Origin: Nitrospira sp.
GTDB taxonomy: Bacteria; Nitrospirota; Nitrospiria; Nitrospirales; Nitrospiraceae
Assembly: GCA_018242665.1 (NCBI GenBank)
Contig: JAFEBL010000013.1
Location: 62,001 to 126,000, forward strand
Direction: 5' to 3'
Length of the DNA: 64,000 nucleotides
The position numbers and the translations under genes were made by a program. Of this stretch, positions 10,409 to 50,002 are shown piece by piece. Under the pieces are notes generated by a model. That model saw nothing but the letters and a program-made list of their open reading frames with translations, did no database searches and was not told where the DNA came from. Within the stretch, counting starts at the first letter, position 1. The number at the start of each line of letters is the position of its first letter.

Positions 10409-12043
10409 CTAACGCGAATTGACCATCGGCAGCTCACGAGTCCCTTCGGCTTCGTGTTGAATCCGTTGGCGTTCTGCTCTCGATTCTTCCATCACATTGT
10501 GCAACAACTCGTCGCTCAATTGAGTGAGCTGAGCGGCCGCATCCTTCATCTCGGCGTGCTCCACCGCGCGCGACAGCACTTCAGCCTTGGTGGCGCCCTT
10601 CTTTTGTCCGAGGAAGGGTTTCATGATGAGATAGGCGACATCACGGAAAGGCATGTACCGAAGGAATCGGCGGAGTAACTTGAAGGTTTGAATAGGGTAG
10701 CGGGTTAACTTATAGAGAAACAGCTTCTTCAACCCCTCCTGCCGCACGTGATTGATCATTTCGCCGGGAAGGCAGGTGGGATCGATTTCGGAACATTTGA
10801 AATACTTGTACCAATCCTTGGCGTCACTCACCAAGCCCCGTTTGACATATTCCTGCCAGAGGGGAGTGCCTCGGTAGACACACAGCCGATTGAAACCAAA
10901 CGTGTCTAATGGCAACCGTGATGCGAACTCGAAGGTCTTTTGCATGTCCTCGACGGTTTCATCGGGATTCCCGACCGTGAAGAAGCCGTGGACGATTTCG
11001 ATCCCCGCCTTCTTCGCGTTCTTGACCGCAGTCTCCACTTCCTCCAACGTCTGCTCTTTCTGCAACCGGTCCAGAATCTTTTGACTCCCGCTTTCGATGC
11101 CAAACATCACGGTCCGGCAGTGTGCCTGCGCCATAATGGGAAACAAGTGCTGTGCAACTGAATCCACCCGTCCTTCGATTCCCCACTGAATCGAGAGCTT
11201 CGCTTCAATGACGCCTTTGCAGATCGCCTCGATGCGTTTCGGCTGGAGCAAGAAATGGTCGTCGACGAAATAGACGGACCCGTATCCGTTGGCTTCAAGA
11301 TGCTTCAACTCCGCCACGACGTGATCGGCGGTTCGAGCTCGCCATTTTCCTTCATTGAAGATCGGGATATCGCAAAAGACACAGGGCCAAGGACAGCCTC
11401 GTGAAGTCTGCATCGTGGTAAATCGTTCCATGGAGAGGACGGCCGGCACGTCCAATGGCATGGATTCCACAAAATCCAATTCCAGGCTTTCCCGGTCAGG
11501 AAACGCCCATTGATCGAGATGACGTTCCACAAGACGATTCGGGTTGTTGACCACACGTCCATCCTTGGCCCAGGTCACCCCACCCACACCACTGGGATCG
11601 TTCATATTCTTAAGCAGGTCCAACAAAAGCTGCTCTCCGTCTCCGCGGCAGACAAAATCCACCTCCGGACACTGCAACTTCACCAACCCCGCATTCAAAC
11701 TGGCGAATACGCCTCCAAACGCCAATTTCACCTGGGCATCGGCGGCCCGGATCTGCCTGGCGAGGATCTTGGCGTAGGGGTAACTCGTGGTACTGAGAAA
11801 ACTTAAGCCGACGAGTGCCGGCTTGCGATGTTTGATCTGCTCAATGATGAAGTCATTCGGGGTTTCCGGGTTGGCTTGGTCAAACATCACACAGTCGTGG
11901 CCCGCCTGTTTCAACACAGCAGAGAGCGACATGATGCCGATCGGAGGAAAGCCCATCACTCGAATACGGCCGTTCTTGGCCCGAGTCTTGGCTGGCAAAG
12001 CGTAAAATTGGGGATCGCGAACGTGTATCAGAAACACCAACAT
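10409..12043 (-). CDS. B12-binding-domain radical SAM protein
   Basis: 544 residues. The N-terminal part (about 1-165) has the cobalamin-binding Rossmann-like fold seen in class B radical SAM enzymes (VMGFPPIGIMSLSAVLKQAG, VGLSFLSTTSYPYAKILARQI, FGGVFASLN, FVCRGDGEQLLLDLL). The radical SAM core carries the cluster motif CPWPCVFCD with Cys217, Cys221 and Cys224, followed by YFVDDHF and MFGIESGSQKILDRLQK. The C-terminal 100 residues are rich in charged helices. Such enzymes methylate or rearrange unreactive carbons of lipids, cofactors or antibiotics. Nothing nearby fixes the substrate; proximity to metK/ahcY fits heavy SAM use but may be chance. Confidence 0.85.
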   Translation of the reverse strand: MLVFLIHVRDPQFYALPAKTRAKNGRIRVMGFPPIGIMSLSAVLKQAGHDCVMFDQANPETPNDFIIEQIKHRKPALVGLSFLSTTSYPYAKILARQIRAADAQVKLAFGGVFASLNAGLVKLQCPEVDFVCRGDGEQLLLDLLKNMNDPSGVGGVTWAKDGRVVNNPNRLVERHLDQWAFPDRESLELDFVESMPLDVPAVLSMERFTTMQTSRGCPWPCVFCDIPIFNEGKWRARTADHVVAELKHLEANGYGSVYFVDDHFLLQPKRIEAICKGVIEAKLSIQWGIEGRVDSVAQHLFPIMAQAHCRTVMFGIESGSQKILDRLQKEQTLEEVETAVKNAKKAGIEIVHGFFTVGNPDETVEDMQKTFEFASRLPLDTFGFNRLCVYRGTPLWQEYVKRGLVSDAKDWYKYFKCSEIDPTCLPGEMINHVRQEGLKKLFLYKLTRYPIQTFKLLRRFLRYMPFRDVAYLIMKPFLGQKKGATKAEVLSRAVEHAEMKDAAAQLTQLSDELLHNVMEESRAERQRIQHEAEGTRELPMVNSR

Positions 12044-13163: not shown

Positions 13164-14036
13164 TTATCGCCCCAACGCAGCCTTGACGGCGTGGCCGATC
13201 TCCGCAGGGTTCTTGACGACGCGGACACCCGCACCTTCAAGAGCCTTCATTTTTTCGGTCGCTGTCCCCTTGCCGCCGGAGATAATGGCTCCAGCATGGC
13301 CCATTCGGCGCCCAGGAGGCGCCGTAATGCCAGCGATAAAACTCACCACAGGCTTTTTGACCTTCGTCTTGATAAATTCTGCCGCCTTCTCCTCCGCATC
13401 GCCCCCAATCTCGCCGATCATGACAATGGCCTGCGTTTCTGGATCCTTTTCAAAGAGCGGCAACACATCCACAAACCCCGTCCCATTGACAGGGTCACCG
13501 CCAATGCCGACACAGGTTGTTTCGCCAAGCCCCAAGGTCGACAGCTGATGAACGGCCTCATACGTGAGGGTGCCGCTGCGGGAGACCACGCCAACGACCC
13601 CTTTCTTGTGAATGAATCCCGGCATGATTCCGATTTTGGCTTCATCGACGGTAATGACACCTGGACAGTTTGGCCCGACGAGCCGGACATCCCGCCCATG
13701 TAAGGCCCGCTTGACCCTGACCATGTCGTTGACGGGAATTCCTTCAGTAATGCAAATCACGAGCTTGATTCCCGCGTCAGCAGCCTCAAGGATCGCATCT
13801 GCACAGAACGGGGGCGGCACAAAAATCAGCGAGGTGTCACAGTCGGTCTTTTTCACCGCATCGCGCACGGTATTGAAGACGGGGATGCCCTCGACTTCCT
13901 GGCCGGCCTTACCGGGCGTCACGCCCGCCACCATCTGAGTGCCATAGGCCTTGCACTGAGTCGCATGGAAGGAACCCTCTTTCCCCGTGATTCCCTGTAC
14001 GACCACCCGCGTGTTCTTATTGACCAAAATGCTCAC
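13164..14036 (-). CDS. sucD: Succinyl-CoA synthetase alpha subunit SucD
   Basis: 290 residues. With SucC it interconverts succinate, CoA and ATP with succinyl-CoA, ADP and phosphate; in the rTCA direction it makes succinyl-CoA for 2-oxoglutarate synthase. Visible are the CoA-binding start ([18 protein letters not shown]), [11 protein letters not shown], and the phosphohistidine loop [12 protein letters not shown] with His247. GTG 14036 is chosen: GAGGG lies just ahead and SucD proteins begin [10 protein letters not shown]. It is the last gene of the cluster, followed by a terminator. Confidence 0.96.
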
Positions 14037-14185
14037 GATACCCTCTTCTCTTTCCCGCCTCCCCCGGAGCACCGGGCAGGCGTGCAATCAATCGCTTGCG
14101 GCACTGCGGACGCTGAACAGCCTGCATCCAACCCGGTCTGCCGCCGACTCGAGCGAGGCAGGAGGCTCATCCCAGATGGCGAGCC

Positions 14186-15364
14186 TTATGCCGCCTTTCC
14201 CGTCAACTTCACAATCTTTTGCGCGGCCTCCCACAGGTCATCAGCCACGTCGACTTTCAGCCCGGATTCCGCCAGGAGCTTCCGGCCTTCAGGCGCATTC
14301 GTGCCTTGCAGCCGCACCACAAGGGGCACATTAATCTTCACCTCTTTGGCTGCCTCAATCACGCCGTGAGCGATGCGTTCGCAACGAACGATGCCACCAA
14401 AAATGTTGATGAAGATGCCTTTGACGTTTGGATCCTTCAGCAGAATTCTGAAACCAGCCGCGACAGTATCCTTCGTGGCGCCACCGCCCACATCAAGAAA
14501 GTTCGCGGGCTCGCTGCCGGCGAGCTTGATGACGTCCATGGTCGCCATGGCCAACCCGGCGCCATTCACCATACAGCCGATGTTGCCATCCAGCTTGACG
14601 TAATTGAGATTGCTCGCCGTCGCTTCAATCTCCAGCGGATCTTCTTCGTTCAAATCGCGCATCTTCTGCACATCCTCGTGCTTGAAGAGGCCGTTGTCAT
14701 CGAAAGACACCTTACCGTCGAGTGCGACCAAGGTTTTTTCTTTCGTGATGATCAGAGGATTGATCTCGACCAGCGCAGCGTTTTTCTCAATAAACAGGCG
14801 GTAGAGGTTTCCGAGCAGCTGCACGAAAGGATTGATGACGGCCGGTTCGATGTGCTGCAACCCCAGCGCAAACGCGACATTCCGCCCATTGTGCCCCTGG
14901 AATCCAACAGCGGGATCAATGGCTTCCTTGATGATCTTTTCCGGTGTTTTTTCTGCGACTTCCTCGATTTCCATACCGCCTTCGGTACTCGCGATAAAGG
15001 TCGCCCAGCCCGTATCTCGATCGACCAGGATACTGAGATACAGCTCTTTGGCGATATTCGCCCCTTCTTCCATAAGCAGGCGATGCACCGTGCGTCCCTT
15101 CGGACCTGTCTGGTGAGTGACCAGCGTTTTGCCGATGAGTTCCTTGGCCAGGCCGGAAACCGCCGTCTTGTCCTTCGTGATCTTGACGCCGCCGGCCTTG
15201 CCGCGACCACCAGCATGAATCTGCGCCTTGACGACAAACACCGGGGTGTTCAACTCATTGGCCCAGGCAGTTGCCGCTTCAGGGGACGTGATCTCTTTTC
15301 CACGCGGAACAGGCACGCCGAATTGCGCGAACAACGACTTAGCTTGAAATTCATGAACGTTCAT
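14186..15364 (-). CDS. sucC: Succinyl-CoA synthetase beta subunit SucC
   Basis: 392 residues, normal length. It has an ATP-grasp domain from the N-terminus ([59 protein letters not shown]) and the C-terminal ligase domain ([33 protein letters not shown]). It forms the heterotetramer with SucD, encoded about 150 bases downstream. Upstream is frdA, so the order frdB-frdA-sucC-sucD follows the pathway from fumarate to succinyl-CoA. Confidence 0.96.
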
Positions 15365-15448: not shown

Positions 15449-17050
15449 TCAAGTCGTCACGACACGTTCCGGTTCTTTGCGCGTATAGGCAGGAAGAATC
15501 ATGGGGGAAATCACGCCGCTGGAATTGCCGTGCTTCTTGGCTTCGGCTCGAAATCGCTGTAGATGATTGAGCGTCAGTTTTCCTTGCTTCATGGAGCCGG
15601 CCCGCGTGGCGGCCGTCAAGCCTGAACGCTTGCCGAACACCATCAAATCGAGGAGCGAATTTCCCATGAGCCGATTCCGGCCGTGAAGACCTCCAGACGC
15701 TTCGCCCGCAACAAATAAATTCTTCACGTTGGTTTCTGAATTCGCGTCGATCTTGACGCCACCATTTTGATAGTGCAACGTCGGGTAGATCAACACCGGG
15801 TCTTTGCTGATGTCGATGCCGAATCGTTCAAATTGCATCATCATTGCGGGGAAATGCTTTTCCACCGTTCCCGGACCATGTTCGGCATCCAGCAGCGGAG
15901 TATCCAGCCACACCCCTACACGACCGGACATCGTGCGAATCCCTCGTCCTTCTTCACACTCTCGAATAATTGAGGAGGACACGACGTCACGCGTATCCAG
16001 CTCATTGACGAACCGTTCGCCCTTGGCATTCACTAGATGCCCCCCCTCAGACCGGATACCTTCGGTCACCAGAGCGCCGATCAATTGCTCAGGATAGACA
16101 GCACCGGACGGGTGGTATTGAAATGTATCGATATGGTCGAGCGTGGCACCCATTCGGTATGACAAGCACAAGCCATCACCGGTTGCACCATAGTGATTGC
16201 TCGTCGGGAACCCTTGAATGTGCAGCCGCCCGATTCCGCCGGTCGCGAGGATGACGGCCTTTGCCGCAACTATCACATGTCGCTGGTTGTCGAGATCTTT
16301 GAATATCGCACCGCTACAATGGCCGTTGTCGTCGCTCAGCAGTTCGACAGCGGCGCAAAATTCCAGCAGCGGAACCTTTTGATTCAGGACCTCGTCTTTC
16401 AAGACACGCATAATTTCGAGGCCGGTATAGTCGGAACAGGTCAGCAATCGCGGCTTGGAACTTCCCCCGCCCTTTTTCACATGCAAATTACCGTCGGCCT
16501 GCCGGTCGAAGAGCACGCCAAGTTCAATGAGCCACTTGGCAATGGATGGGCCTTCCTCGACCATGACCTTCAGCAGCTCATGGTCGTTCTGCATGTGACC
16601 GCCCTTGAGGGTGTCCAGGAAGTGGGTGACCGGTGAATCTTCCGGTGCCACAGAGATTTGCATACCACCCTGGGCCATCACGCTATTGGAATCGCCGAGA
16701 CGAAGCTTCGTGGCAAGAATCACCTTGGCACCGCTTGCATGGGCATGAAGCGCGGCCGCGCACCCAGCTCCTCCACCGCCTATCACCAGGACATCCGTCG
16801 TATACTGCGGAGTGACATCAAGATTCTCAGGGATGGAACTATCCCCTTCGAGCAAGGCGGCCAGCTCCACAACCGTTTTATCGTTAGCGTTCGGTCCAAA
16901 TCGAATCGGTCGATACGCACTGGCCCGATAGTCCGGGTGATATTGATGAATCAGTTGGTCTCGGTCTGCGGGGGAAAACTTTGGGATTGTCTGCTTGCGG
17001 CGAGCATCTCGCGTTTGATGAACAATCTGCTGAAGTGCGTGGATATCCAT
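15449..17050 (-). CDS. frdA: Fumarate reductase / succinate dehydrogenase flavoprotein subunit (non-covalent FAD type)
   Basis: 533-residue flavoprotein catalysing fumarate/succinate interconversion. FAD binding is by VLVIGGGGAGCAAALHAHASG (about residues 87-107). In E. coli-type FrdA/SdhA the FAD is linked to a His in RSHT; here that stretch reads GDSNSVMAQGG with Asn122, so FAD is probably not covalently bound, as in soluble fumarate reductases and L-aspartate oxidase. Catalytic features follow: FQYHPSG, GIRSEGGHLVN, ELDTRDVVS, and GRNRLMGNSLLDLMVFGKRSG. About 80 residues precede the FAD domain. ATG 17050 is preferred; the frame is open to 17113. No membrane-anchor gene (frdC/D, sdhC/D) is adjacent, so a soluble or loosely bound fumarate reductase for the rTCA cycle is the best reading. 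Confidence 0.88.
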   Translation of the reverse strand: MDIHALQQIVHQTRDARRKQTIPKFSPADRDQLIHQYHPDYRASAYRPIRFGPNANDKTVVELAALLEGDSSIPENLDVTPQYTTDVLVIGGGGAGCAAALHAHASGAKVILATKLRLGDSNSVMAQGGMQISVAPEDSPVTHFLDTLKGGHMQNDHELLKVMVEEGPSIAKWLIELGVLFDRQADGNLHVKKGGGSSKPRLLTCSDYTGLEIMRVLKDEVLNQKVPLLEFCAAVELLSDDNGHCSGAIFKDLDNQRHVIVAAKAVILATGGIGRLHIQGFPTSNHYGATGDGLCLSYRMGATLDHIDTFQYHPSGAVYPEQLIGALVTEGIRSEGGHLVNAKGERFVNELDTRDVVSSSIIRECEEGRGIRTMSGRVGVWLDTPLLDAEHGPGTVEKHFPAMMMQFERFGIDISKDPVLIYPTLHYQNGGVKIDANSETNVKNLFVAGEASGGLHGRNRLMGNSLLDLMVFGKRSGLTAATRAGSMKQGKLTLNHLQRFRAEAKKHGNSSGVISPMILPAYTRKEPERVVTT

Positions 17051-17119
17051 AGTTTCGCTTTCGGTGCAACGCTCAATGCCTGAACAGAGTCGTCCGAGAC
17101 CGACTGACGGCACAATGCG

Positions 17120-17830
17120 TTATTTTACTGTCGCGCAGTGATCGGCTAATTCCTGTTCATTCATCCCGAGTACTTTTTTCCACTCGTCGTTATAGCGGCC
17201 ATCTTGGATTTCCTTGATGCGGCTATCCAGTCCCTGCGGCTTTTCCGTAAAATGCGCGCCCTGAGCCCGGCTGACATACAGAGCCACGAGATTCGGAGCG
17301 ATGTCTGCAATGCAGACGGGTGTGCACATGCCGCACATAACGCAGTCCATGAACATTTCGGAAACGCTCTTGAAATCTCCAAAGACGGCCTTCCACACGC
17401 CTTCACGCACGTCAATCTTCTGGGGACAGGCCTCGGTACAGGCGTTACAGTTCCGACAGAGCGGTGCCTCCGGGTACAAATTGAAGAGATCTTGCTTGGG
17501 GTCTTTGAGCGATTGGATATCATACAGCGCTTTGCGCGCTGGGAAGGGCGGCATGATGGTGAACGACATGCCATCTTCCACGGCCATCTGGCAGGCCAAA
17601 CAAGTTCGAACCTTGGGATCGTCTTTCGTGCGGTAATACGTCGCGCACGCCCCGCAAAATCCTCCCAGGCATCCTGCTCCTCGCACCACCTCTTGCCCGG
17701 TGTGCCACAAGGCCTTGATAACGGTGATCCCTTCCGGCACTTCGTACTTCTTGCCAGAAATTTCGATCGTCACCATTTTGTGACGCATGACTTCCGGCTG
17801 ATCGATCACATTAGTATCTTCTTGTGCCAT
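17120..17830 (-). CDS. frdB: Fumarate reductase / succinate dehydrogenase iron-sulfur subunit
   Basis: About 236 residues. An N-terminal 2Fe-2S ferredoxin domain has GCLGGFCGACATYY plus TCLAC. The C-terminal alpha-helical domain holds a 4Fe-4S/3Fe-4S set, CRNCNACTEACP (about residue 141) and CVMCGMCTPVC (about residue 180). The arrangement matches SdhB/FrdB but is short of a quinone site partner because no anchor subunits follow. It passes electrons to FrdA, encoded about 70 bases downstream. ATG 17830 (AQEDTNV) is chosen over the frame start at 17893. The electron donor (quinol, NADH or ferredoxin) cannot be told from the sequence. Confidence 0.9.
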   Translation of the reverse strand: MAQEDTNVIDQPEVMRHKMVTIEISGKKYEVPEGITVIKALWHTGQEVVRGAGCLGGFCGACATYYRTKDDPKVRTCLACQMAVEDGMSFTIMPPFPARKALYDIQSLKDPKQDLFNLYPEAPLCRNCNACTEACPQKIDVREGVWKAVFGDFKSVSEMFMDCVMCGMCTPVCIADIAPNLVALYVSRAQGAHFTEKPQGLDSRIKEIQDGRYNDEWKKVLGMNEQELADHCATVK

Positions 17831-17913: not shown

Positions 17914-20169
<2,256 letters not shown>

Positions 20170-22413
20170 TTAGTTCAAAGCATTCAACGCTGAGCCGGCC
20201 TTGAACCAGGTGATTTGCTGCGCGGTCATGCTGTGATTTGTTTGAATCTTCACGTCACCGCCAGTCTTATGCACGATCACGGTCACAGGTTTCCCCGGCG
20301 CTAAGTTGGCAAGATCCACGACGCTGATGCGATCGTTCTGTTCGATCTTTTCATAGTCCTTGGGATCGGCAAATGTGAGCGGGAGGATGCCCTGCTTCTT
20401 CAGATTTGTCTCGTGAATGCGGGCAAAACTCTTCGTGATCACCGCCCGCACGTTCAGGAAGCGCGGAGACATTGCGGCATGTTCGCGGCTACTGCCTTCG
20501 CCGTAGTTCTCATCTCCGACGACAATGGACCCGATCCCTTTGGCCTTATACGCCCGTGCGATCTGGGCCATCGTCAGATTGGATTCACCCGTCAGTACGT
20601 TGGTTCCCTTCCCCGGCTCCGACGAAAAACTATTGTTGGCGCCCAGGAACATGTTGTCGCTGATCTTGTCCAAATGGCCCCGGAACTTCAGCCAAGGTCC
20701 GGCCGGAGAAATGTGGTCGGTCGTGGTCTTTCCCTTCGTCTTGATCAGGAGCGGCAATTTCTCGAAATCTTTTCCGTCCCATTTGGGAAAAGGCTGGAGC
20801 AGCTGCAATCGCTCGCTGGTCGGCGGGATATCAACGGTGAGGCTCGAACCATCTTCTGCCGGCGCCACGAAGCCTTCTTCACCCTTAGCAAAACCCTTGG
20901 CGGGCAATTCCTCTCCAACCGGCGGCTGAAGCTTGAACTCCTTCCCATCTGCACCCTTGACCGCCTGGTTGACCGGATCAAAGCCCAGATCTCCCGTGAT
21001 GGCATAGGCCGTCACGACTTCCGGGCTAGCGAGGAACGATAGCGTTTCACTGATACCGTCATTGCGTCCTGGGAAATTGCGATTGAAGGAGCTCACGATA
21101 GAGTCCGCACGCCCCTTCACTCCGTCGGCCCGCTTCCACTGTCCGATGCAGGGACCGCAGGAATTTGACAACACGGTTCCCCCGAGTTTCTCAAACGTAT
21201 CCATGAATCCATCCCGCTTCATCGTGTGATAGATGCGTTCGGATCCCGGGGAGATCAAAAATGAGGCCTTCGCCTTCAAGCCGGCTTTCAACGCCTGCTG
21301 AGCCACGTGGGCTGAACGGCTGATGTCCTCATATGAGGAGTTCGTACAGCTGCCGATCAACGCCGCTTTCAACTCGACCGGGTAGCCCTTCTCCTGAGCC
21401 TCGGCCTTCAATTTGGAAATAGGCCGCGCCAGATCGGGCGTGTGCGGCCCGACGACGTGCGGCTCGAGTTTTGACAGGTCGATTTCGACAATTTGATCAT
21501 AGTATTTTTCTGGAGACTGCGCGACTTCGGGGTCGGCCACCAGCAGGTCCTTGTGGGACTGTGTGAAGCTGGCTAGATCGGCACGGTCGGTAATCTTCAT
21601 GTAGGCCACCATCTTCTCATCGAACGGGAAGACAGAGGTCGTGGCGCCCAATTCGGCGCCCATGTTGCAAATGGTCCCCTTGCCGGTAGCGCTGATGGTT
21701 TCAGCACCCGGACCGAAATACTCAACGATCTTGTTCGTACCACCCTTCACCGTGAGTAGACCGCACAAATAGAGGATCACGTCTTTCGGAGACGCCCACC
21801 CATTGAGCTTTCCGGTCAATCGCACACCGATCAATTTTGGATGAAGCACTTCCCAGGGAAGTCCGGCCATCACTTCACCGGCATCCGCCCCACCAACACC
21901 GATTGCCAACCCACCCAAACCACCGCCATTCGGGGTATGCGAGTCAGTCCCGATAATCAAACAACCGGGGAAGGCATAGTTCTCCAGCACGACCTGGTGG
22001 ATAATACCTGCGCCCGGCTTCCAAAAGCCGATGCCGTACTTTTTCGCGGCAGAGGCCAGAAAGTTATAGACTTCCTTGTTCTCATCAAGCGCTCGAAGCA
22101 GGTCTTTCTGAGAGCCCATTTCGGCACGGATCAAGTGATCACAGTGAATCGTGCTCGGGACCGCAGCCTTTTTCTTGTTGGCTTGCATGAATTGCAACAC
22201 GGCCATCTGAGCTGTGGCATCTTGCATCGCCACACGATCCGGCCGAAGGGCCAGCATGGCCTTTCCACGTTCCCAGTTTTGGCTATCAAAGTTATCTGCG
22301 TGCGAGACAAGAATTTTTTCGGCAAGCGTCAACCCTCTGCCGAACTTCTTTCTGGCCTTGGCAAACACATCCGGCATCTTGGCGTAGAGTGCTTTGGCGA
22401 GATCCATGGACAT
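20170..22413 (-). CDS. acn: Aconitate hydratase (mitochondrial-type, about 747 aa)
   Basis: Aconitase converting isocitrate to citrate by way of cis-aconitate. It contains TIHCDHLI near residue 93, the cluster cysteine motif IGSCTNSS near residue 355 and NSCGPCIGQW (two further cluster cysteines) near residue 420, and the swivel domain motif GSSREHAAMSPR near residue 645. Length and order match the mitochondrial/Bacteroidetes-type enzyme rather than AcnA (about 890 aa) or AcnB. GGAG eight bases ahead of ATG 22413 supports the first Met. Its 5' flank holds three consecutive hairpins (22445-22489). Confidence 0.96.
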   Translation of the reverse strand: MSMDLAKALYAKMPDVFAKARKKFGRGLTLAEKILVSHADNFDSQNWERGKAMLALRPDRVAMQDATAQMAVLQFMQANKKKAAVPSTIHCDHLIRAEMGSQKDLLRALDENKEVYNFLASAAKKYGIGFWKPGAGIIHQVVLENYAFPGCLIIGTDSHTPNGGGLGGLAIGVGGADAGEVMAGLPWEVLHPKLIGVRLTGKLNGWASPKDVILYLCGLLTVKGGTNKIVEYFGPGAETISATGKGTICNMGAELGATTSVFPFDEKMVAYMKITDRADLASFTQSHKDLLVADPEVAQSPEKYYDQIVEIDLSKLEPHVVGPHTPDLARPISKLKAEAQEKGYPVELKAALIGSCTNSSYEDISRSAHVAQQALKAGLKAKASFLISPGSERIYHTMKRDGFMDTFEKLGGTVLSNSCGPCIGQWKRADGVKGRADSIVSSFNRNFPGRNDGISETLSFLASPEVVTAYAITGDLGFDPVNQAVKGADGKEFKLQPPVGEELPAKGFAKGEEGFVAPAEDGSSLTVDIPPTSERLQLLQPFPKWDGKDFEKLPLLIKTKGKTTTDHISPAGPWLKFRGHLDKISDNMFLGANNSFSSEPGKGTNVLTGESNLTMAQIARAYKAKGIGSIVVGDENYGEGSSREHAAMSPRFLNVRAVITKSFARIHETNLKKQGILPLTFADPKDYEKIEQNDRISVVDLANLAPGKPVTVIVHKTGGDVKIQTNHSMTAQQITWFKAGSALNALN

Positions 22414-22520: not shown

Positions 22521-24341
22521 CTACTTCAGCGGCGGCACTTCGCGACGCTTGGGCGCCGCATAATTCACCAGGTAATCGAACAACCGGATGAGGCGGCTGT
22601 CCTGGCGCTTTTGGTCCACCCAATGGCCAATCAAGCCAATCGTTCTGGACAGGATGAAGAAACCGTTCAAACTGTCGACCGGAAATCCAATGTCGACCAA
22701 CACGGCCGCCATCGTCCCGTCCACATTCAGAATCAGGTTATCCTTCTTGACTGCCGTGACTTTCTCGACCTCCAGCGCGAAATCGAGGCAAGGGGTCTTA
22801 ATGTTGAGGCTTTTCACATACCCGACTAGTTCCTTCACACGCTTGTCCGGATTACGCAAGCTCTTTACACGATGACCGATGCCCGGTACCGGGCCGTGAT
22901 TCTTTTTCATGTAGGCCAGAAATTCATCCACGGCCATCTTGTTGTCGACCGCATACTTGAAGAATCGACCCGCATCCGTGACCGCACCGCCGAATCGGGG
23001 ACCGATCATGATCAGGCCAGCGGCCACCGCCTGAGAGAGGCCAATCCCGGCACAGGCGGCAAGGATCGTCGCATAGGCGCCGCTCACGCATGGACCGTGA
23101 TCTGCAGAAAGCATCATGATGCGCTTAATAATTTCAGCTTCCTGCTTGGAGATGAGTCGCTTGTCCCAGAGCAGGCCGATGACATGCGGTATTTCGTAGC
23201 CTTTGTTAATCAGCTCAGAGGCAGGGTACCCGTCATAACAAGGCTCGTCGCCACGGTCGTCGCTGATCGTGGTACGGATGAGCGGCGGCACCATGACTTC
23301 ATCGGCCTTCATGGCTTCTTCTATGGATTTGGGCAGTTTCGGCAGGCTTGCCGGCTCTACCACGGGTTTTACCTGACCCGACTTGAGAAGCCCTTCGTAC
23401 GTTTCCTTGATGGCAGGGCCCAAGGCACCAAACGTCGGCGGAACAAGTGCTCCAGCCTTCTTGAGAGCATCCGATTTCGAACGAGCTGATCCCTCGCCCT
23501 TCATGCCCTCCTTCGCGCCGGCATGGCCGAACTTCATGCCCTTCGGCAAGCTTTCCTGACAGAAGCCGGACACGACCCCGATCAGCTTAACCCGACGCTT
23601 CTTCGCGCCGTACCACTCCGCCGCGCGCTCCTCAAGATCGCCACCCATTTCTCCGACGATGACCACCGCTTTGGTCTGCGGATCGTTTTCAAACATTTCG
23701 AGATAGCTGACGTAATCGGTTCCGGGATAGGCATCACCACCGATCCCGATCGCCGTGGTGATGCCGTCGGCGAACTGAGAGCAAATCCAGATGATTTCAT
23801 TGGAGAGACCACCCGATTTCGTAATGACCCCAAACGACCCTTCGCGATACAGTTTGGAGAGGACGAGGTTGTCGAACGCACCACCGATGACGCCCAAGCG
23901 GCAAGCACCTGCCGAAATGATGCCGATGGAGGAGGGGCCGTTAAACACTTTGCCGAGCTTGCGGGCATGGGCCCCCAACAGCTTGGCATCCTTTTCGGGC
24001 ACACCCTCGGTGATCATTGAAACCACCTTAATATGGGCGTCGTCCAATGCTTCCATTCCGCCCTTCATGGCGCGGTCGGCTCCAATATAGACGAGACTGG
24101 TATTGAGGCTAGGATGATGCTTGGTCGCTTCCGCAATGCTCTTATAGATGGGAATGGCGATCAATCCGCTGCCGTAGGGGATTTCGTTCGTCTTGCCGGC
24201 GTCCGGCGGGTAGACGAAGGCTTCCACATTCAAAGGCCGCTTGATCAGATAGCAAAATTCCGCCATCCGTCGTGCTGCATTGACACCTGCCTGACCACCC
24301 TGAATCACTACGCGGGTGTCCTTGTTTGCCAGAATACTCAT
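22521..24341 (-). CDS. aclA: ATP-citrate lyase large subunit AclA
   Basis: 606 residues. The N-terminal half is a CoA-ligase-like domain with VVIQGGQAGVNAARRMAEF, GPSSIGIISAGACRLG and the phosphohistidine loop KFGHAGAKEG (His273). The C-terminal half is a citrate-synthase-like domain, with MLSADHGPCVSGA, GPRFGGAVTDAGRFF and PGIGHRVKSLRNPDKRV. This is the domain order of AclA from green sulfur bacteria, the key rTCA enzyme that cleaves citrate to acetyl-CoA and oxaloacetate with ATP and CoA. GAGGGAG precedes ATG 24341. It is encoded downstream of aclB, the order known for aclBA. Confidence 0.97.
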   Translation of the reverse strand: MSILANKDTRVVIQGGQAGVNAARRMAEFCYLIKRPLNVEAFVYPPDAGKTNEIPYGSGLIAIPIYKSIAEATKHHPSLNTSLVYIGADRAMKGGMEALDDAHIKVVSMITEGVPEKDAKLLGAHARKLGKVFNGPSSIGIISAGACRLGVIGGAFDNLVLSKLYREGSFGVITKSGGLSNEIIWICSQFADGITTAIGIGGDAYPGTDYVSYLEMFENDPQTKAVVIVGEMGGDLEERAAEWYGAKKRRVKLIGVVSGFCQESLPKGMKFGHAGAKEGMKGEGSARSKSDALKKAGALVPPTFGALGPAIKETYEGLLKSGQVKPVVEPASLPKLPKSIEEAMKADEVMVPPLIRTTISDDRGDEPCYDGYPASELINKGYEIPHVIGLLWDKRLISKQEAEIIKRIMMLSADHGPCVSGAYATILAACAGIGLSQAVAAGLIMIGPRFGGAVTDAGRFFKYAVDNKMAVDEFLAYMKKNHGPVPGIGHRVKSLRNPDKRVKELVGYVKSLNIKTPCLDFALEVEKVTAVKKDNLILNVDGTMAAVLVDIGFPVDSLNGFFILSRTIGLIGHWVDQKRQDSRLIRLFDYLVNYAAPKRREVPPLK

Positions 24342-24447: not shown

Positions 24448-25647
24448 TCATTTCGTTTGGAGCGCCTTGTCGACAATGTCTGTCAGCGGCGTGTTCCGGT
24501 CGAAGACATTGATGTCGAAGCCTTCGTCCATCAAGGCCCGCATCGCGTCGAGACCTTCTTTTTCACGCGGCCCGCCACGGCGAACCCAAATCTTTACACC
24601 CTTCAGCTTGCCACCGGCTTTTGCTTTGCGAAAACCGTTAATGATGCCTCCGAAGGTCTTCTTCACATCGGTGAAGTTCGCAATCGCACCGCCGACGATG
24701 ATGTTCTTGATTCCGGGCAACGAACACACTTTTTCCGTCAACACTTCTACCGCCCAGTCTGGTGGATCACCGGAATATTCGGCATAATTGGCCAATTTCC
24801 CCCCACGCGCCACGACCGCGTCGGAATAGTACACACTGGCACCACCACCGGCTGGCAGCATGGCCGTATCACCGCCAGGGATCTCAATGAATTTGACCGA
24901 GCCCTTGATCTTACTGTCCACCGCCATGACTTCAACTTCATCCTTGGAGTAGGCCCGTCCGAATTCTGCCGCGAAGGCGAAATTCCAGTCTGGATGGCGA
25001 AACTTCGCATCACCATCGAGCAGCGTCACCGCGTCGAGTGCGACCAATTGTCCATCGCTTTCCCGTGTGACGACCGGGTTCACTTCAAGGTACTGGGCAT
25101 CTTCGCTATCGAAGCAGGTGAACATCTTACCGGCGAACTCCGCCATCTTCTTGGTCAGAGCCCCGGTGAATCCAGCTTCCTTGGCCAATTTTTCCAATCC
25201 CTCGGCCGTCGGTTGTTGCCCCACATCCAGACAGAGCCGCTTGACGCGCTCCCAGTTCGATTCCACTTCAATCCCGCCGCAGTTAGCGACCAAGATTTCG
25301 GTACCCTCCCGCGTCGACTTCACGGCACAATAGTATTCTTCCTTGTGCGGCACCATTTCGGACACGATGACTTGCGCCACCGTGATGCTTCCGACTTGCC
25401 GTCCGATCATTTCCTTCGTCGCAGCAATAGCACCATTCAAATCCAAGCCGACCTTCACCAAGCCCAGCTTGAACCGCGAACCCAATGCTTCGTGCGCCTT
25501 GGCGACCAACTTGGATGCCTTCATCCAGTCATTGGCCTGTCCAAGCTTGGTAAATTCATCCGCTGAGGTCACTACCACATAATTGGGAACGTGGATTCCC
25601 CACTTCTTCATCAGCCCCATGCCTGGGCCTTCGAGCACTTTCGCCAT
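24448..25647 (-). CDS. aclB: ATP-citrate lyase small subunit AclB
   Basis: 399 residues with an ATP-grasp fold related to SucC: MAKVLEGPGMGLMKKWGIHVPNY at the N-terminus, CFDSEDAQYLEVNPVVTRESDGQLVALDAV near residue 190, and a ligase-type C-terminal half with LPAGGGASVYYSDAV, VGGAIANFTDVKKTFGGIINGF and VRRGGPREKEGLDAM. It is the partner of AclA in citrate cleavage. CAAGGAG precedes ATG 25647. It is the first gene of the eight-gene rTCA run that ends with sucD. The 5' flank (25648-25847) carries a striking A/T palindrome. Confidence 0.97.
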   Translation of the reverse strand: MAKVLEGPGMGLMKKWGIHVPNYVVVTSADEFTKLGQANDWMKASKLVAKAHEALGSRFKLGLVKVGLDLNGAIAATKEMIGRQVGSITVAQVIVSEMVPHKEEYYCAVKSTREGTEILVANCGGIEVESNWERVKRLCLDVGQQPTAEGLEKLAKEAGFTGALTKKMAEFAGKMFTCFDSEDAQYLEVNPVVTRESDGQLVALDAVTLLDGDAKFRHPDWNFAFAAEFGRAYSKDEVEVMAVDSKIKGSVKFIEIPGGDTAMLPAGGGASVYYSDAVVARGGKLANYAEYSGDPPDWAVEVLTEKVCSLPGIKNIIVGGAIANFTDVKKTFGGIINGFRKAKAGGKLKGVKIWVRRGGPREKEGLDAMRALMDEGFDINVFDRNTPLTDIVDKALQTK

Positions 25648-37385: not shown

Positions 37386-38180
37386 ATGGCACTGATCAGC
37401 CGTCGCACGAAGTCCACCCACAGACTCGGCGAAGACCGCTCCGGAACCGGAACCGACTTCGTCAATGCGCTATTGATCCTTACGGGCTTGCTGCTGGCCG
37501 TTCACGCCCCCCAGGGGTTGCACGCGGAACCATCCACCGCCACGCTGGCCGGACGAGTCCTCTATGGTGGTCCAGCCGTTCCCGACCAGGTAGTCGAGAT
37601 CACTCGCGATTCGGCGTTTTGCGGCACACAGGCCACCCTTCGCACCGTGGCGATCCATCCAAAAACACGAGGACTCGAAGGCGCCGTCGTGAGCATCGAC
37701 GGGAGCGCCGTGCCGGTATCCGATACCGCGGTGCCACCACTCGTGTTGACGAATACTCGCTGCGGCTTTGCTCCTCGCATTGCCGTCGGCATCGTCGGGC
37801 AACAGTTGGAAATCCGCAATACCGACCCCGTCATGCACAACACACATATCTCGATGGGGCCGCGTACCTTCGTGAATGTGGCCATGATTCCCGCCAGTCG
37901 ACCGGTCGGAAAACCACTCAAGCAGCCGGGGATCTACACGGTGAAATGCGACGCCCACAAATTTATGCAGGCGCATGTCCTCGCGTTCACGCATCCCTAC
38001 TTCGGGGTGACGGACGAGACCGGCGCCTTTCGGATCCCGAATCTTCCCGCAGGCGAACATCAAGTGACCATTTGGCATGAGACCTTAGGCACGTTCCAAC
38101 AAACCGTCACGGTGTCGGCACAGCATGACACCAGCATCACCTTCGAATATCCCCATCATGGCGACAGCAGAAAACCATAA
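37386..38180 (+). CDS. Exported cupredoxin-like (type-1 copper) protein with a C-terminal regulatory-like beta domain
   Basis: 264 residues. A long N-terminal segment with a hydrophobic stretch ([23 protein letters not shown]) looks like a signal peptide or anchor. The copper site can be read as His151 ([10 protein letters not shown]; His154 possible), Cys188, His191 and Met194 in [11 protein letters not shown], the normal type-1 spacing. Residues about 205-255 ([27 protein letters not shown]) form a carboxypeptidase regulatory-like beta-sandwich. It is thus a small electron-transfer protein with a possible docking domain. It starts three bases after the dihaem gene, and its end overlaps the start of the first hybrid kinase. 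Confidence 0.75.
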
Positions 38181-41088
38181 CCGGCACTGGTTCAGCCGGC
38201 TCTGGGCCATCTGGCAAGGCAGTCTCCGGCTCCGCCTCAGTGTCGGGATGGCGGTGATCATCACCCTTGGCATGGCCTTGTTTGCGACTTTCCGTCTGGT
38301 TGAAATCCGCCGCTCCGTCGAAGATGCCGCACAGGCCAAGGCGCTGGCGGTCAGTCGTACCTTCGCGATGATGGGAGGCGCTGCTGTTCTGGACAATCTT
38401 TTCCGGATTCAGGAAGCCCTGACTCGATATGCTCAGGGCGCCGACATCGTCAGTATCGTCCTCGTCGATCCCGACAATATGATTGTGGCGGCGACCGACC
38501 CCGGCTCAATCGGTCGACAACTCACAGATCCCACGCTGTTGCAGGCTCAAGCCAGGAGAATGGAAACCCTCACTCACGACCTGCAGCCTGACGGCACGCC
38601 GACGCTGGTGGTCGCCACCCCGTTATTGGAGGAACAAACGGTCGCAGCCTGGGTCCGCCTTGAGTTTTCCCTGGCGGCGATGAAGCAGGAGGTGACGCGA
38701 GAATTCCGCCAGTTGCTGCTGTTCTCCGCATTGTTGATGGCGATGACTATTCTCGTCAGTCAACTGGGAATCCGGCGCATGTCGGCGCTCTTCCGGGACA
38801 CAGCCGGCACACTTCAGAATACGCTTCGGACGCTGCACCGCCCCTCGGAGCAGGATCAGGCCGTGAACGAGGTGCCCGCTCCCTCCGACTCCACCAGAGA
38901 TTCTCGGGAGGGCGAGCTCGAGCAGATGGTGTCTCTCGTAGAAACCACGAGCACGCTTCTCACCACGCAAGCCCAACGACTCCAATCGTTTACACAGTCT
39001 CTGGAACATGCCGTGCAGGAGAGAACCGCCGAACTCTCTGAGGCCAAAGAAGCAGCCGAGACAGCCAATCGAGCTAAATCGCAATTCCTCGCGAACATGA
39101 GCCACGAGATTCGGACCCCGATGAACGGGGTGTTGGGCATGGCCGAACTGCTCCTCACGACCGCACTGACGCCCAAACAGCGCTCCCTCGCGGAAACTCT
39201 TCATCGTTCCGGCACCGGGCTCCTGGATATCATCAATGAGATTTTGGATTTCTCCAAAATCGAAGCCGGGAAACTGCTGCTTGAACGGATTGAATTCGGC
39301 TTGCGGCAAATCATCGAGGACGCCGTCGATCTCCTGGCAGAATCAGCCAATCGCAAGAACCTTGAACTGACCTGCTTCATACCGGACGAGATTCCGGATG
39401 CCGTAATCGGAGACCCGGTGCGACTTCGCCAGATTGTGCTGAATCTGGTCAGCAACGCCATCAAGTTTACCCATGCCGGTGAGGTCTCAGTCTCTTTCTC
39501 GCTCAAAGCACGAGAGTCCGACAACGTGGTGCTGAAATGTGCGGTCCGCGACACCGGTATCGGCATTTCCGAAACCGCACGCGCACGACTCTTTCAGGCA
39601 TTCTCCCAGGCGGACGGCTCCACAACCAGACAGTTCGGCGGGAGCGGGCTTGGCCTGGCGATCGTCAAACAATTAGCACACTTGATGAGAGGTGACGTGG
39701 GGGTCGAGAGCCTTCCTGGCCAAGGCTCAACCTTTTGGTTCACGGCGACGCTAGGGACCGCGACGGAGACGGGGGCAACGGCGGACACCAACCAGGCGAC
39801 ATTAACAGGCATGCCAGTCCTGATCGTCGACGACAACCCAACAAACCGACAAATTCTGGAAGCACACTTAACCAGCTGGGGCGCCATCGTACACTCCGCG
39901 ACTTCAGCCCGTGAAGCCTTGCACTTCCTCGGCGAGGAGCATGCCTCTCATCCCAAGGTACGGCTGGCGATACTGGATATCCATATGCCGGAGGTAGACG
40001 GCATCGATCTCGCCCAGGCCATCAGGAACTCCGCCGGACTGCATGACCTGCTGTTAGTGGCGTTGAGCTCCGTCGGACAACCGGACCAAGATCCCCGACT
40101 CTCCCCCTCGCTGTTCAATGCCTGGTTGAGGAAACCGATCCACCAGTCGTTGTTGAAGGACTGCCTGACGCGTCTCTGTCGACATGCGCCGGAAGACGAA
40201 TCCCCGGTCGCGGTTCAGCCACAGAATGACACGCCAAGGTTCTCCGGCCATGTCCTGCTGGCCGAAGACAATCCCGTGAACCGCGAGGTGGCCTGCAGCA
40301 TGTTGGAGCTGCTGGGCTGTACCACCGCTGTCGCGGAAAATGGCAAGGAAGCGGTGGCCGCCGTCGAGAACGGGTCGTTTGATCTGATCCTCATGGATTG
40401 CCACATGCCGGAAATGGACGGCCTGACCGCCACAGAAACGATCCGCACACATGAGGGGCAGCGACAGCACCCTCGCCACACCACTATCGTCGCCCTTACA
40501 GCCAATGCGCTGGAAGGAGATCGCCAGCGATGTCTCGCCGCAGGCATGGACGATTATCTGACAAAGCCGTTTACCATGAATCAACTCAAGGCCACCCTTC
40601 AACGATGGCTTCCCGACACGTCCGTCCATACGCCGGCTTCGCCTCCTGCAGCGCAGCCGCCGGAACCCGCCTCCCTCCTGAACACACAAACGCCCGCGGC
40701 GCACGCGAGGCCGGCCGCCGAAGATCACCTCGACCTCCACGCCTGGCAGGCTTTCCGTACCCGTCAGCGACCCGGGCAGCCGGACTTCTTGCTCAAAGCC
40801 CTCTCATTGTATGTGCCTCATGCGGAAGCCCAGCTGACGCGGCTCGAACAACATGTGATCAGCGGCGACATCCAGGCCATTGCGATGATCGCCCATACGC
40901 TGAAATCGTCCTCGGCGCAACTTGGCGCGTTCCGCCTCGCAGGGCTGTATGCGGAGGTAGAAGCCGCCGGACGTGCCGGCAAAACCGGCGAGATCCCCGG
41001 CCTCATTCAACGCCTGCGGCCCGAGCACAACATCGTCTGTGCCCTCATGCAGGAAGAGCTCAACCGAACAGGACGGTCGGCAGCGTGA
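38158..41088 (+). CDS. Membrane hybrid sensor histidine kinase with two receivers and HPt
   Basis: 976 residues. Two transmembrane helices (about 25-45 and 180-200) enclose a periplasmic sensor of about 130 residues resembling a single-PAS/Cache domain ([19 protein letters not shown]). A coiled-coil leads to the His-kinase core with phospho-His316 ([15 protein letters not shown]), ATPase boxes ([24 protein letters not shown]), receiver 1 (Asp about 607), receiver 2 ([11 protein letters not shown], Asp about 747) and a C-terminal HPt with His about 912. ATG 38158 overlaps the cupredoxin gene by 23 bases, so expression of the redox module and the sensor is coupled. No output protein is adjacent. 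Confidence 0.88.
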
Positions 41089-44062: not shown

Positions 44063-44392
44063 CGAACTCCACATCGGGAACTGCTTCCGACTATCTCCCT
44101 ACGTATTCCTCGCCATCTGAAGATCGAACACCCCGCCGGAACAAGTGATGGCCCTCCGGGCATATCCTCTTAGCGGAGGACAATCTTCTCAATCACGAGC
44201 TCATGTGCACCATGCGCGAGATCCTGAGATGCCGGGCTTAACTTCTCTTGCCTGCCCACACATCCTTTCTCAAGTTGAGGTCGTCAGCCGCCGATACTGA
44301 ACCGGAACGGTCACGTATCCGGCGAGTGATTTATGTTGTGCGCTGCCTCGCCCGTGCCTTCATTCACCCTCGGCGGAGATGCTCCACAGTCC
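44063..44392. other. Intergenic region before the TonB-dependent receptor
   Basis: 330 bases. I see a weak 6-bp hairpin (44153-44158 with 44174-44179) but no convincing promoter, gene or cobalamin-type riboswitch core. Confidence 0.4.
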
Positions 44393-46429
44393 ATGAACAC
44401 GAATAAAAAAACGTATAGCGCTATTGTCGTTGCGAGTTACTGCCTGTCGGTCACGCTGGCGCTTGGTGCCAACGTCGATCCGACCTTGGCACCATCAGAA
44501 GACTTGACGGACCTGCCGCTTGAACAACTCATGTCAGTCGAAGTCACCTCTGTCGCCAAGCAAGCACAGCCACTGTCACAAGCCGCCGCGGCTATCTTCG
44601 TCATCTCACAAGAAGACATCCGCCGTTCCGGTGCCACCTCGATCCCAGAAGCGCTCCGAATGGTACCTGGGCTGCAGGTGGCTCGACTCGACGCGAACAA
44701 ATGGGCCATCACTGCACGTGGATTCAATGACCGCTTTGCCAACAAGCTGTTGGTACTGATTGACGGTCGCACTGTCTACACACCGTTGTTTTCGGGAGTG
44801 TACTGGGATGTACAAGACACCTTGCTGGAGGACGTCGATCGCATCGAGGTGATTCGGGGTCCTGGGGCGACACTCTGGGGCGCCAATGCAGTCAATGGGG
44901 TCATCAATATCATCACGAAAAAAGTCAAAGATACACAGGGCGCACTGCTCGTGGCGGGGGCAGGAACTGAAGAGCGCGGGTTCGTCGGCATGCGCTACGG
45001 CACGGAACTCTCACCCAACACCCACATGCGCGTGTATGGAAAATTCTTTGCGCGCGATGATCAGGCGACGCCCACCGGCGATCCGTCGACCGACCATTGG
45101 AATCAGGCCAGAAGCGGCATGCGGATCGACCATACCACCACTCGTGGCGATCAATTCACCCTGCAGGGCGATTATTACAATGGGCGAATCCACGACCGTT
45201 TAACGACCCCCACGCTGACGGCACCGTTTTTCAATACTTCGGACAACAGTGGTCAAGTGAGCGGAGGCAATTTATTAGGCCGCTGGGGCCGCACACTCTC
45301 TCCAACCTCTGGCTATACACTCCAGCTTTACTATGACCGTAGTGAGCGGAACCTGGTGCAATTGGCCGAAAAACGAGACATCGCCGACATCGACTTTCAA
45401 TATAATTTTGCCCTGGGCGATCGGCACCATCTCCTGTGGGGGTTGGGGTATCGATTTACCAATGACCAGATCGTCAGCAGCTCAACCATTGTGGTGACGC
45501 CGTATAGCCGCCTGCTCAACCTATGGAGCGGCTTCGTCCAGGACGAAATGACGCTCTTGCCGAAAACCGTTGCACTCACCCTTGGAACCAAAGTCGAACA
45601 CAACGATTTGACCGGATTCGTCGTCCAGCCGAATGCGCGTCTTCGGTGGACGCCGACGCCTCACCAAACCTTGTGGTGGGCTGTGTCTCGGGCTATCCGT
45701 ACCCCCTCACGGGCTGAAGACGATATGCGCATCAACCAGACGACGCAGCCTCCAAGCTCAGCGACATTGGGGTTGCCGGTCCTTGCGTCCGTGCTCGGCA
45801 ATAGAGGGTATGGCAACGAGAAAACCCTCGCTTATGAAGCAGGCTATCGTACCCAACTGACCGAGAAACTCTCACTCGATATCGCGGCGTACTACAATTC
45901 CATGAAAGATCTCCGAACGTTTGAACAGGGGCCCATCGGGCTTGAAACAAACCCCTCGCCGGTCCATCTACTCGCACCGTTCAACATCGCCAACCGGCTT
46001 CGCGCCGAAACGTACGGCGTTGAGGTAGTCGTGGAATGGCGGCCGCTCGAGTGGTGGCGCATTCAACCGTCCTATACCTATTTGCATATGAGCCTCTATA
46101 CGGATCGCACCACTGATCAGACAGCAAACACGGCCACGGGGCGAAGCCCGGCCCATCAAGCCTCGCTCCGTTCGTTGATGTCGCTCCCCCACAATTTCGA
46201 GCTCGATCTGTGGGGACGCTATGTCGATACGCTGACATCGGCACAAATTCCCTCCTACTTCAACCTCGATGTTCGGATCGGGTGGCGGCCAAGCAAACAA
46301 TTGGAACTGTCATTGGTGGGGCAAACCTTGCTCGATTCCCATCGACCGGAATATCGAGAGGCGCTTATCTCAACCTCTCCGACAGAAATCCAACGATCCA
46401 TCTATGGGAAAGCCACATGGCACTTCTAG
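44393..46429 (+). CDS. TonB-dependent outer-membrane receptor
   Basis: 678 residues. A signal peptide (YSAIVVASYCLSVTLALGA) is followed by the plug domain, with LEQLMSVEVTSVAKQ (TonB-box-like region), IPEALRMVPGLQV, ITARGFNDRFANKLLVLIDGRTVYTPLFSGVYWD and IEVIRGPGATLWGANAVNGVINIITKK. A 22-strand-type barrel follows and ends in TWHF, the aromatic C-terminus expected. The subfamily with ARGFNxRxxNKLLVLIDGR includes receptors often encoded with signalling genes. Substrate is unknown. ATG 44393 gives a proper signal peptide; the frame is open to 44333. It is followed by yfiR-like and kinase genes in the same direction. Confidence 0.9.
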   Translation: MNTNKKTYSAIVVASYCLSVTLALGANVDPTLAPSEDLTDLPLEQLMSVEVTSVAKQAQPLSQAAAAIFVISQEDIRRSGATSIPEALRMVPGLQVARLDANKWAITARGFNDRFANKLLVLIDGRTVYTPLFSGVYWDVQDTLLEDVDRIEVIRGPGATLWGANAVNGVINIITKKVKDTQGALLVAGAGTEERGFVGMRYGTELSPNTHMRVYGKFFARDDQATPTGDPSTDHWNQARSGMRIDHTTTRGDQFTLQGDYYNGRIHDRLTTPTLTAPFFNTSDNSGQVSGGNLLGRWGRTLSPTSGYTLQLYYDRSERNLVQLAEKRDIADIDFQYNFALGDRHHLLWGLGYRFTNDQIVSSSTIVVTPYSRLLNLWSGFVQDEMTLLPKTVALTLGTKVEHNDLTGFVVQPNARLRWTPTPHQTLWWAVSRAIRTPSRAEDDMRINQTTQPPSSATLGLPVLASVLGNRGYGNEKTLAYEAGYRTQLTEKLSLDIAAYYNSMKDLRTFEQGPIGLETNPSPVHLLAPFNIANRLRAETYGVEVVVEWRPLEWWRIQPSYTYLHMSLYTDRTTDQTANTATGRSPAHQASLRSLMSLPHNFELDLWGRYVDTLTSAQIPSYFNLDVRIGWRPSKQLELSLVGQTLLDSHRPEYREALISTSPTEIQRSIYGKATWHF

Positions 46430-47185: not shown

Positions 47186-50002
<2,817 letters not shown>

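Follow-up and report, generated by a model that had tools for sequence, protein, structure and literature searches.

The window analysed here, a 64,000-nucleotide stretch of a Nitrospira sp. genome (assembly GCA_018242665.1, contig JAFEBL010000013.1, positions 62,001 to 126,000), carries a reverse (reductive) TCA (rTCA) cycle gene cluster in the order aclB-aclA-acn-idh-frdB-frdA-sucC-sucD on the minus strand (Table 1). Within this cluster, frdB precedes frdA with 69 bases between them, and the pair is flanked by idh upstream and sucC downstream. The large lyase subunit is presumably AclA, a name given on the model of the two-subunit ATP-citrate lyase. No anchor gene adjoins frdBA, and a hydropathy scan of frdA, frdB, idh and sucC found no transmembrane window, in agreement with an earlier, sequence-only reading of this locus, which had noted that no frdC/D or sdhC/D genes flank the pair. 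A gene encoding a B12-binding radical SAM protein is located near sucD (window 10409-12043), and an 83% identical homologue is found near sucD in another locus (L109). The window also contains clustered histidine-kinase genes (38125-41088, 47186-50002, 57631-61281 and 61278-62525) and a gene for a TonB-dependent receptor of the TOL_0244 family (44333-46429).

Table 1. Genes and features of the rTCA cluster in the window (window coordinates).
Feature	Product or description	Coordinates	Strand	Basis
aclB	ATP-citrate lyase small subunit, AclB type	24448..25647	minus	ATP-grasp and PF16114 citrate-binding domains
aclA	ATP-citrate lyase large subunit, presumably AclA type	22521..24341	minus	CoA-ligase and citrate-synthase domains
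acn	aconitase, mitochondrial type	20170..22413	minus	TIGR01340
idh	monomeric NADP isocitrate dehydrogenase	17914..20142	minus	TIGR00178
frdB	FrdB iron-sulfur subunit, 236 aa	17120..17830	minus	ATG at 17830; Cys spacing, fold matches
frdA	FrdA flavoprotein, 533 aa	15449..17050	minus	ATG at 17050; PF00890, 5e-85
Asn122 codon	site of the covalent FAD-binding His	16685..16687	minus	alignments
sucC	succinyl-CoA synthetase beta	14186..15364	minus	directly downstream of frdA
sucD	succinyl-CoA synthetase alpha	13164..14087 (start codon approximate)	minus	profile match

In the HMMER alignment with E. coli FrdA, Asn122 occupies the exact column of the FAD-linking histidine (query '..LGDSNSVMAQGG' under E. 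coli FrdA '..PMRSHTVAAQGG'). In a separate MAFFT alignment, all 98 FrdA rows have N in this column, where the SdhA of the same genome has H; this result replaces an earlier regular-expression count of 86 N and one A among 87 matching rows, in which 11 rows were unmatched. The earlier assignment of Asn122 to this position is thereby upheld, and proper alignment reveals no histidine at the flavinylation site. The catalytic residues His314, Glu331, Arg334, His427 and Arg461 are invariant in the 98 sequences, and the Thr330 column contains T or S (numbering of the frame at window 15449-17053). The Succ_DH_flav_C domain (PF02910), present in the genome's own SdhA, is missing from FrdA, which has 70 residues after the NSLL motif compared with 178 in that SdhA. 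FrdA also has an N-terminal extension of ~65-80 aa, with the flavin motif beginning at residue 92 rather than at ~10, and Pro40, Asp41 and Gly53 of this extension are kept in 98/98 rows. The AlphaFold2 model of FrdA (pLDDT 88, pTM 0.90) has E. coli FrdA as its closest fold according to Foldseek and the soluble flavocytochrome c3 as its top match according to VIA-align (Z ~40, residues 66-522 covered); residues 1-65 were unmatched in the structure searches, with no evidence of a new fold. In a tree of 107 rows, built by a quick method without bootstrap and with warnings on long outgroup branches, the 98 FrdA rows fall on one side, apart from the SdhA and NadB rows (SH-aLRT 100).

Could FrdA be an L-aspartate oxidase? 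The nadB and sdhA_frdA models of NCBIfam score it almost equally (308.6 and 308.7 bits, respectively), and the genome's own NadB also has Asn at the FAD-His site. However, the nadB score lies below the cut-off of that model (452.75), and the NadB-specific Glu, which we take to be the aspartate-binding Glu121 of E. coli, is absent in 98/98 FrdA and present in 4/4 NadB-like rows; moreover, a separate NadB is encoded, and FrdA is paired with FrdB. We therefore rejected this identity, the chance of which we regard as negligible. The best NCBIfam match of FrdA was TfrA of the methanogen thiol:fumarate reductase TfrAB (371 bits, far below the cut-off of 718). Because none of the NCBIfam models tested reached its cut-off for FrdA (nor did any for FrdB), this flavoprotein can easily receive a mistaken annotation as SdhA or NadB.

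The 12 cysteines of FrdB are invariant in 25/25 Nitrospirota FrdB and in all 38 rows of a second set, which comprised the window's FrdB and 37 of 76 named FrdB frames. From their spacing, one [2Fe-2S] and two [4Fe-4S] clusters are predicted, in line with the sequence-only reading of a 2Fe-2S cluster accompanied by further clusters. The third Cys motif is a full four-Cys set; quinone-reactive SdhB normally lacks one Cys of this motif. With the dhsB profile, FrdB scored 22.6 bits, short of the cut-off (88), and the pair thus differs from covalent-FAD complex II in the flavinylation His, the Succ_DH_flav_C domain and the dhsB-family SdhB. The CCG domain (PF02754) was not found by Pfam in the 236 residues of FrdB, which, unlike methanogen TfrAB, is without the CCG thiol-oxidising part. 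In the predicted structure (pLDDT 85.7, pTM 0.71), the best match of the dicluster half was methanogen HdrC (Z 11.8, 86 residues, rmsd 2.0) and that of the N-terminal half was NuoG/HydA-type [2Fe-2S] domains, although Z values of such a size are suggestive only for small helical domains. FrdB is single-copy in its own genome, where only one match was obtained. Tandem frdB pairs are located upstream of frdA in three loci of the same class (L103, L104 and L105) and in three f14 loci (L092, L093 and L094); the second FrdB of the tandem is only ~40% identical to that of the window, yet all 12 Cys are kept.

Genome-wide, FAD_binding_2 gave three strong flavoprotein matches, FrdA, NadB and a His-bearing SdhA (contig 4), so that a standard sdhA is encoded elsewhere in this genome. 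Contig 44 encodes, ~10 kb apart, an SdhB of the dhsB type and a CCG protein. The same three genes, for SdhA, SdhB and the CCG protein, stand together in genomes G038 and G027, the latter without FrdA, and those scattered in the window's genome (SdhA, L009:5476-7131; SdhB and CCG protein, L049, 14402-15376 and 3207-4130) therefore most likely encode a type-E complex II (SdhABE). The SdhB of this complex likewise has the full dicluster motif; unlike FrdAB, however, the complex contains a His-bearing SdhA with the C-terminal domain, plus the CCG subunit. The sequence-only reading had recommended a genome-wide search for anchor subunits, and this search gave no Sdh_cyt match above the cut-off; because the same model missed its cut-off in half of 14 control genomes, the scan is an incomplete anchor test.

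We also considered that FrdAB might be quinol-linked through an unlinked or unrecognised anchor, either the type-E CCG protein or a membrane protein resembling orf1, which the available text of Levican 2008 (PMC2607301) proposes as the Leptospirillum anchor. An orf1 homologue is found beside frdB in all four f22 (Leptospirillum-like) loci read, the copy in L098 having four hydrophobic windows, and the CCG protein and SdhB share one contig in the window's genome. However, among 207 sequences (the window and fetched loci), orf1 matched only the f22 loci, and the window's genus gave no match; in G038 and the FrdA-less G027, the CCG gene stands together with those for SdhA and SdhB, and FrdB lies below the dhsB cut-off. 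A quinol link therefore seems a distinctly poor prospect. In the Leptospirillum-like loci, a ~200-aa protein is encoded directly before frdB (L095:6528-7109, L097:10419-11015, L098:10459-11067 and L100:6939-7592), and is probably the orf1 product of the 2008 proposal. A relationship of orf1 (L098) to PsiE was rejected, as no Pfam match was found at 1e-5.

Among 395 Nitrospirota genomes, FrdA was above the cut-off (1e-75) in 186 and AclA (1e-100) in 172. One FrdA match, in G290, proved to be a canonical SDH beside SdhB, and the family is therefore present in 185, not 186, genomes. Both FrdA and AclA were present in 159 genomes; 27 had only FrdA, 13 only AclA and 196 neither. These counts ignore the relatedness of the genomes, so that a Fisher value computed from them does not represent a probability. 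The acl-acn-frdB-frdA-sucCD synteny is kept across most of the loci read in the class. Among the genomes with FrdA only are those of f22, in which citryl-CoA synthetase/lyase genes take the place of ACL and the gene order is that published for L. ferriphilum (PMC2607301). The AclA-only set consists of two f4 genomes, seven f21 genomes (no FrdA at the cut-off used) and four genomes in at least 120 contigs, for which gaps may be responsible. In G027 and G033 (f4; L202 and L203), aclBA-acn-idh-sucCD is kept with no frdBA between idh and sucC, which indicates that FrdAB is not indispensable to the rTCA gene set. Perhaps complex II takes over in the f4 genomes without frdBA, or the cycle runs the other way; G027 retains an SdhABE cluster. 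The third f4 genome of the phylum draw, G030, has neither AclA nor FrdA.

Is it possible, then, that FrdAB serves mainly as the succinate dehydrogenase of an oxidative TCA cycle? The FrdA model shares the family fold, and aconitase, IDH and SucCD are bidirectional. We nevertheless consider this very improbable, because FrdA tracks AclA across the genomes, because a His-bearing SdhA is encoded separately, and because non-covalent FAD disfavours succinate oxidation, as is known from His mutants of E. coli FrdA. By analogy with these mutants, FrdAB would be biased to fumarate reduction.

What accompanies this pair beyond the phylum? Our scan of named genomes covered the best 80 of 581 confirmed relatives, and FrdB was found within the locus in 76 of these 80. 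Of the 50 loci among them that had at least 7 kb upstream, HdrA was present in 34, HdrB in 37, HdrC in 36, FlxA in 29 and a FlpD/MvhD-type subunit in 32; 23 of these loci had a class II and 11 a class I fumarase. The FlpD, NAD-binding and CCG domains were confirmed by Pfam in representative loci. Outside Nitrospirota, frdBA is thus often accompanied by fumarase and/or Flx-Hdr, a NADH/heterodisulfide-reductase module. On the FrdA tree, the presence of Hdr changes 7 times over 78 scorable rows (47 with, 31 without), where all Nitrospirota rows except L096 were set to 'without' on the basis of 20 genomes tested and the loci read. Hdr is missing from the Nitrospirota rTCA rows, from the Dehalococcoidia-like Chloroflexota rows scored and from the L099/L111 group. 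The module is therefore not a trait of all soluble-FrdAB relatives, and HdrA was not found (E<=1e-30) in the window's genome. The single FrdA clade and the short, adjacent 12-Cys FrdB point to a soluble family related to the enzymes of the Flx-Hdr operons, a family that is widespread and poorly characterised. Within Nitrospirota, L096 (G046 contig 34) contains a second FrdBA, which belongs to the Flx-Hdr-associated clade and has HdrB- and HdrA-like genes ~4-7 kb upstream of frdB.

These observations bear on the source of the electrons, for which the sequence-only reading had named NADH or ferredoxin. Given the absence of HdrA from the search results, Flx-Hdr is not supported as the partner of FrdAB in the window's genome, and a supply of NADH electrons by that route, which published work infers for relatives, is unlikely there. 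Hydrogenobacter and Aquifex possess a soluble rTCA fumarate reductase that is NADH-dependent, and FrdAB might similarly form the centre of a larger complex whose NADH-oxidising subunit is encoded apart from the pair. In the part of PMC10052474 available to us, the Aquifex genes for FrdA-E are tabulated as scattered, with FrdD annotated as nox; by this description, the enzyme is set apart by its five subunits and its FrdA of 63.9 kDa, and its FrdB (27 kDa) is similar in size to that of the window. Also compatible with such a complex are the NADH-binding FlxA beside the frd genes of relatives in the 29 loci mentioned above, a stand-alone NuoF encoded in the window's genome, and, in the accessible text of PMC6606698, the high transcription of one N. 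moscoviensis nuoF located apart from the complex I clusters. On the other hand, the cluster is without a NADH-type gene, a search of 20 Nitrospirota genomes gave no HdrA in 19, that of the window among them, and close NuoF relatives occur in f4 genomes without FrdA and, in the three FrdA-positive f14 genomes listed, fall short of the 1e-130 cut-off. NuoF is accordingly not supported as a dedicated diaphorase, its profile across the phylum not following that of FrdA, and we regard the NADH-dependent complex as unlikely. No further complex I gene accompanies the stand-alone NuoF gene (L056:5654-6955; G000 contig 51) in the stretch read; identity to its product is ~70% or higher in f1-f3 genomes and ~60% in two f4 genomes.

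How might FrdAB function? We consider it probable, at about 0.72, that FrdAB serves the reductive TCA cycle as a soluble fumarate reductase of two subunits, with non-covalent FAD and a low-potential donor that is most likely ferredoxin. The catalytic residues, the Asn in place of His, the 12 Cys, the missing anchor gene and the rTCA synteny are read from the sequence; from these we infer the cluster types, solubility, direction and rTCA flux, and the electron donor is the least certain element. First, ferredoxin or, less probably, another low-potential one-electron carrier would deliver electrons to FrdB. Second, the electrons would cross the two predicted [4Fe-4S] clusters and the [2Fe-2S] cluster to the non-covalent FAD of FrdA. 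Third, fumarate would be reduced to succinate at this FAD, and SucCD, encoded next door, would convert succinate to succinyl-CoA for the next carboxylation. Sequence, synteny and co-occurrence together support a soluble enzyme that binds FAD non-covalently and reduces fumarate, and to this extent the sequence-only interpretation holds. Of the two electron sources that it named, ferredoxin is favoured by the FrdB clusters and by the absence of HdrA, and NADH by analogy with Hydrogenobacter/Aquifex.

We speculate, more tentatively, that FrdAB may be a stand-alone ferredoxin:fumarate reductase in which ferredoxin donates directly to the HdrC-like subunit, with Flx-Hdr having become linked to this FrdAB in anaerobes. 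If so, fumarate reduction in the chemolithoautotrophs of this phylum would be uncoupled from the quinone pool and from NADH, and in Flx-Hdr anaerobes it may help to drive electron bifurcation. How much energy nitrite and iron oxidisers spend on the reverse TCA cycle depends in part on what donates the electrons for fumarate reduction, and once this family is defined, the identity of the donor can be tested directly by expression of two subunits.

Several related systems are already in print. The available text of PMC7282089, which cites the 2019 preprint of Koendjbiharie and van Kranenburg, describes a Flx-Hdr-linked fumarate reductase and a 'succinate operon' of Pseudoclostridium thermosuccinogenes, the plan of which (fumarase, Hdr, Flx, frdBA, transporter) is that of many relatives found here. 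By comparison with this published description, the FrdA and FrdB of the window are homologous to Flx-Hdr-linked relatives whose operon plan matches, and differ from the P. thermosuccinogenes pair in being located in an rTCA cluster, in a genome in which HdrA was not found. As described in the accessible parts of PMC2607301, the frdAB of L. ferriphilum, like that of the window, is a pair without a known anchor located between citrate-cleaving genes and sucCD; in contrast, CCS/CCL replaces ACL, the extra orf1 is present, the FAD is described as covalent, and the enzyme is filed under type E. In the available text of Rubin-Blum 2019 (PMC6315080), a putative tfrAB is reported in the rTCA clusters of tubeworm symbionts and Thioflavicoccus; by this description, it is put forward as a thiol-type fumarate reductase and, like the window's pair, lies in an rTCA cluster with aclAB; it differs in being interspersed with flxABCD-hdrABC and korABCD. 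The pair of the window is thus a variant of what has been published, namely the anchorless frdAB of Leptospirillum (2008) and the Flx-Hdr-linked FrdAB (2019-2020). In a literature search from which subscription journals were mostly out of reach, we found no paper in which the Nitrospira pair is described as a soluble fumarate reductase, and the FrdAB family is not among the soluble homologs named in the available part of PMC10238741. The accessible text of PMC6606698 mentions a lone, highly expressed flavoprotein gene of N. moscoviensis, annotated as SdhA or NadB and given no role there; this gene, NITMOv2_0695, could encode the FrdA of this family.
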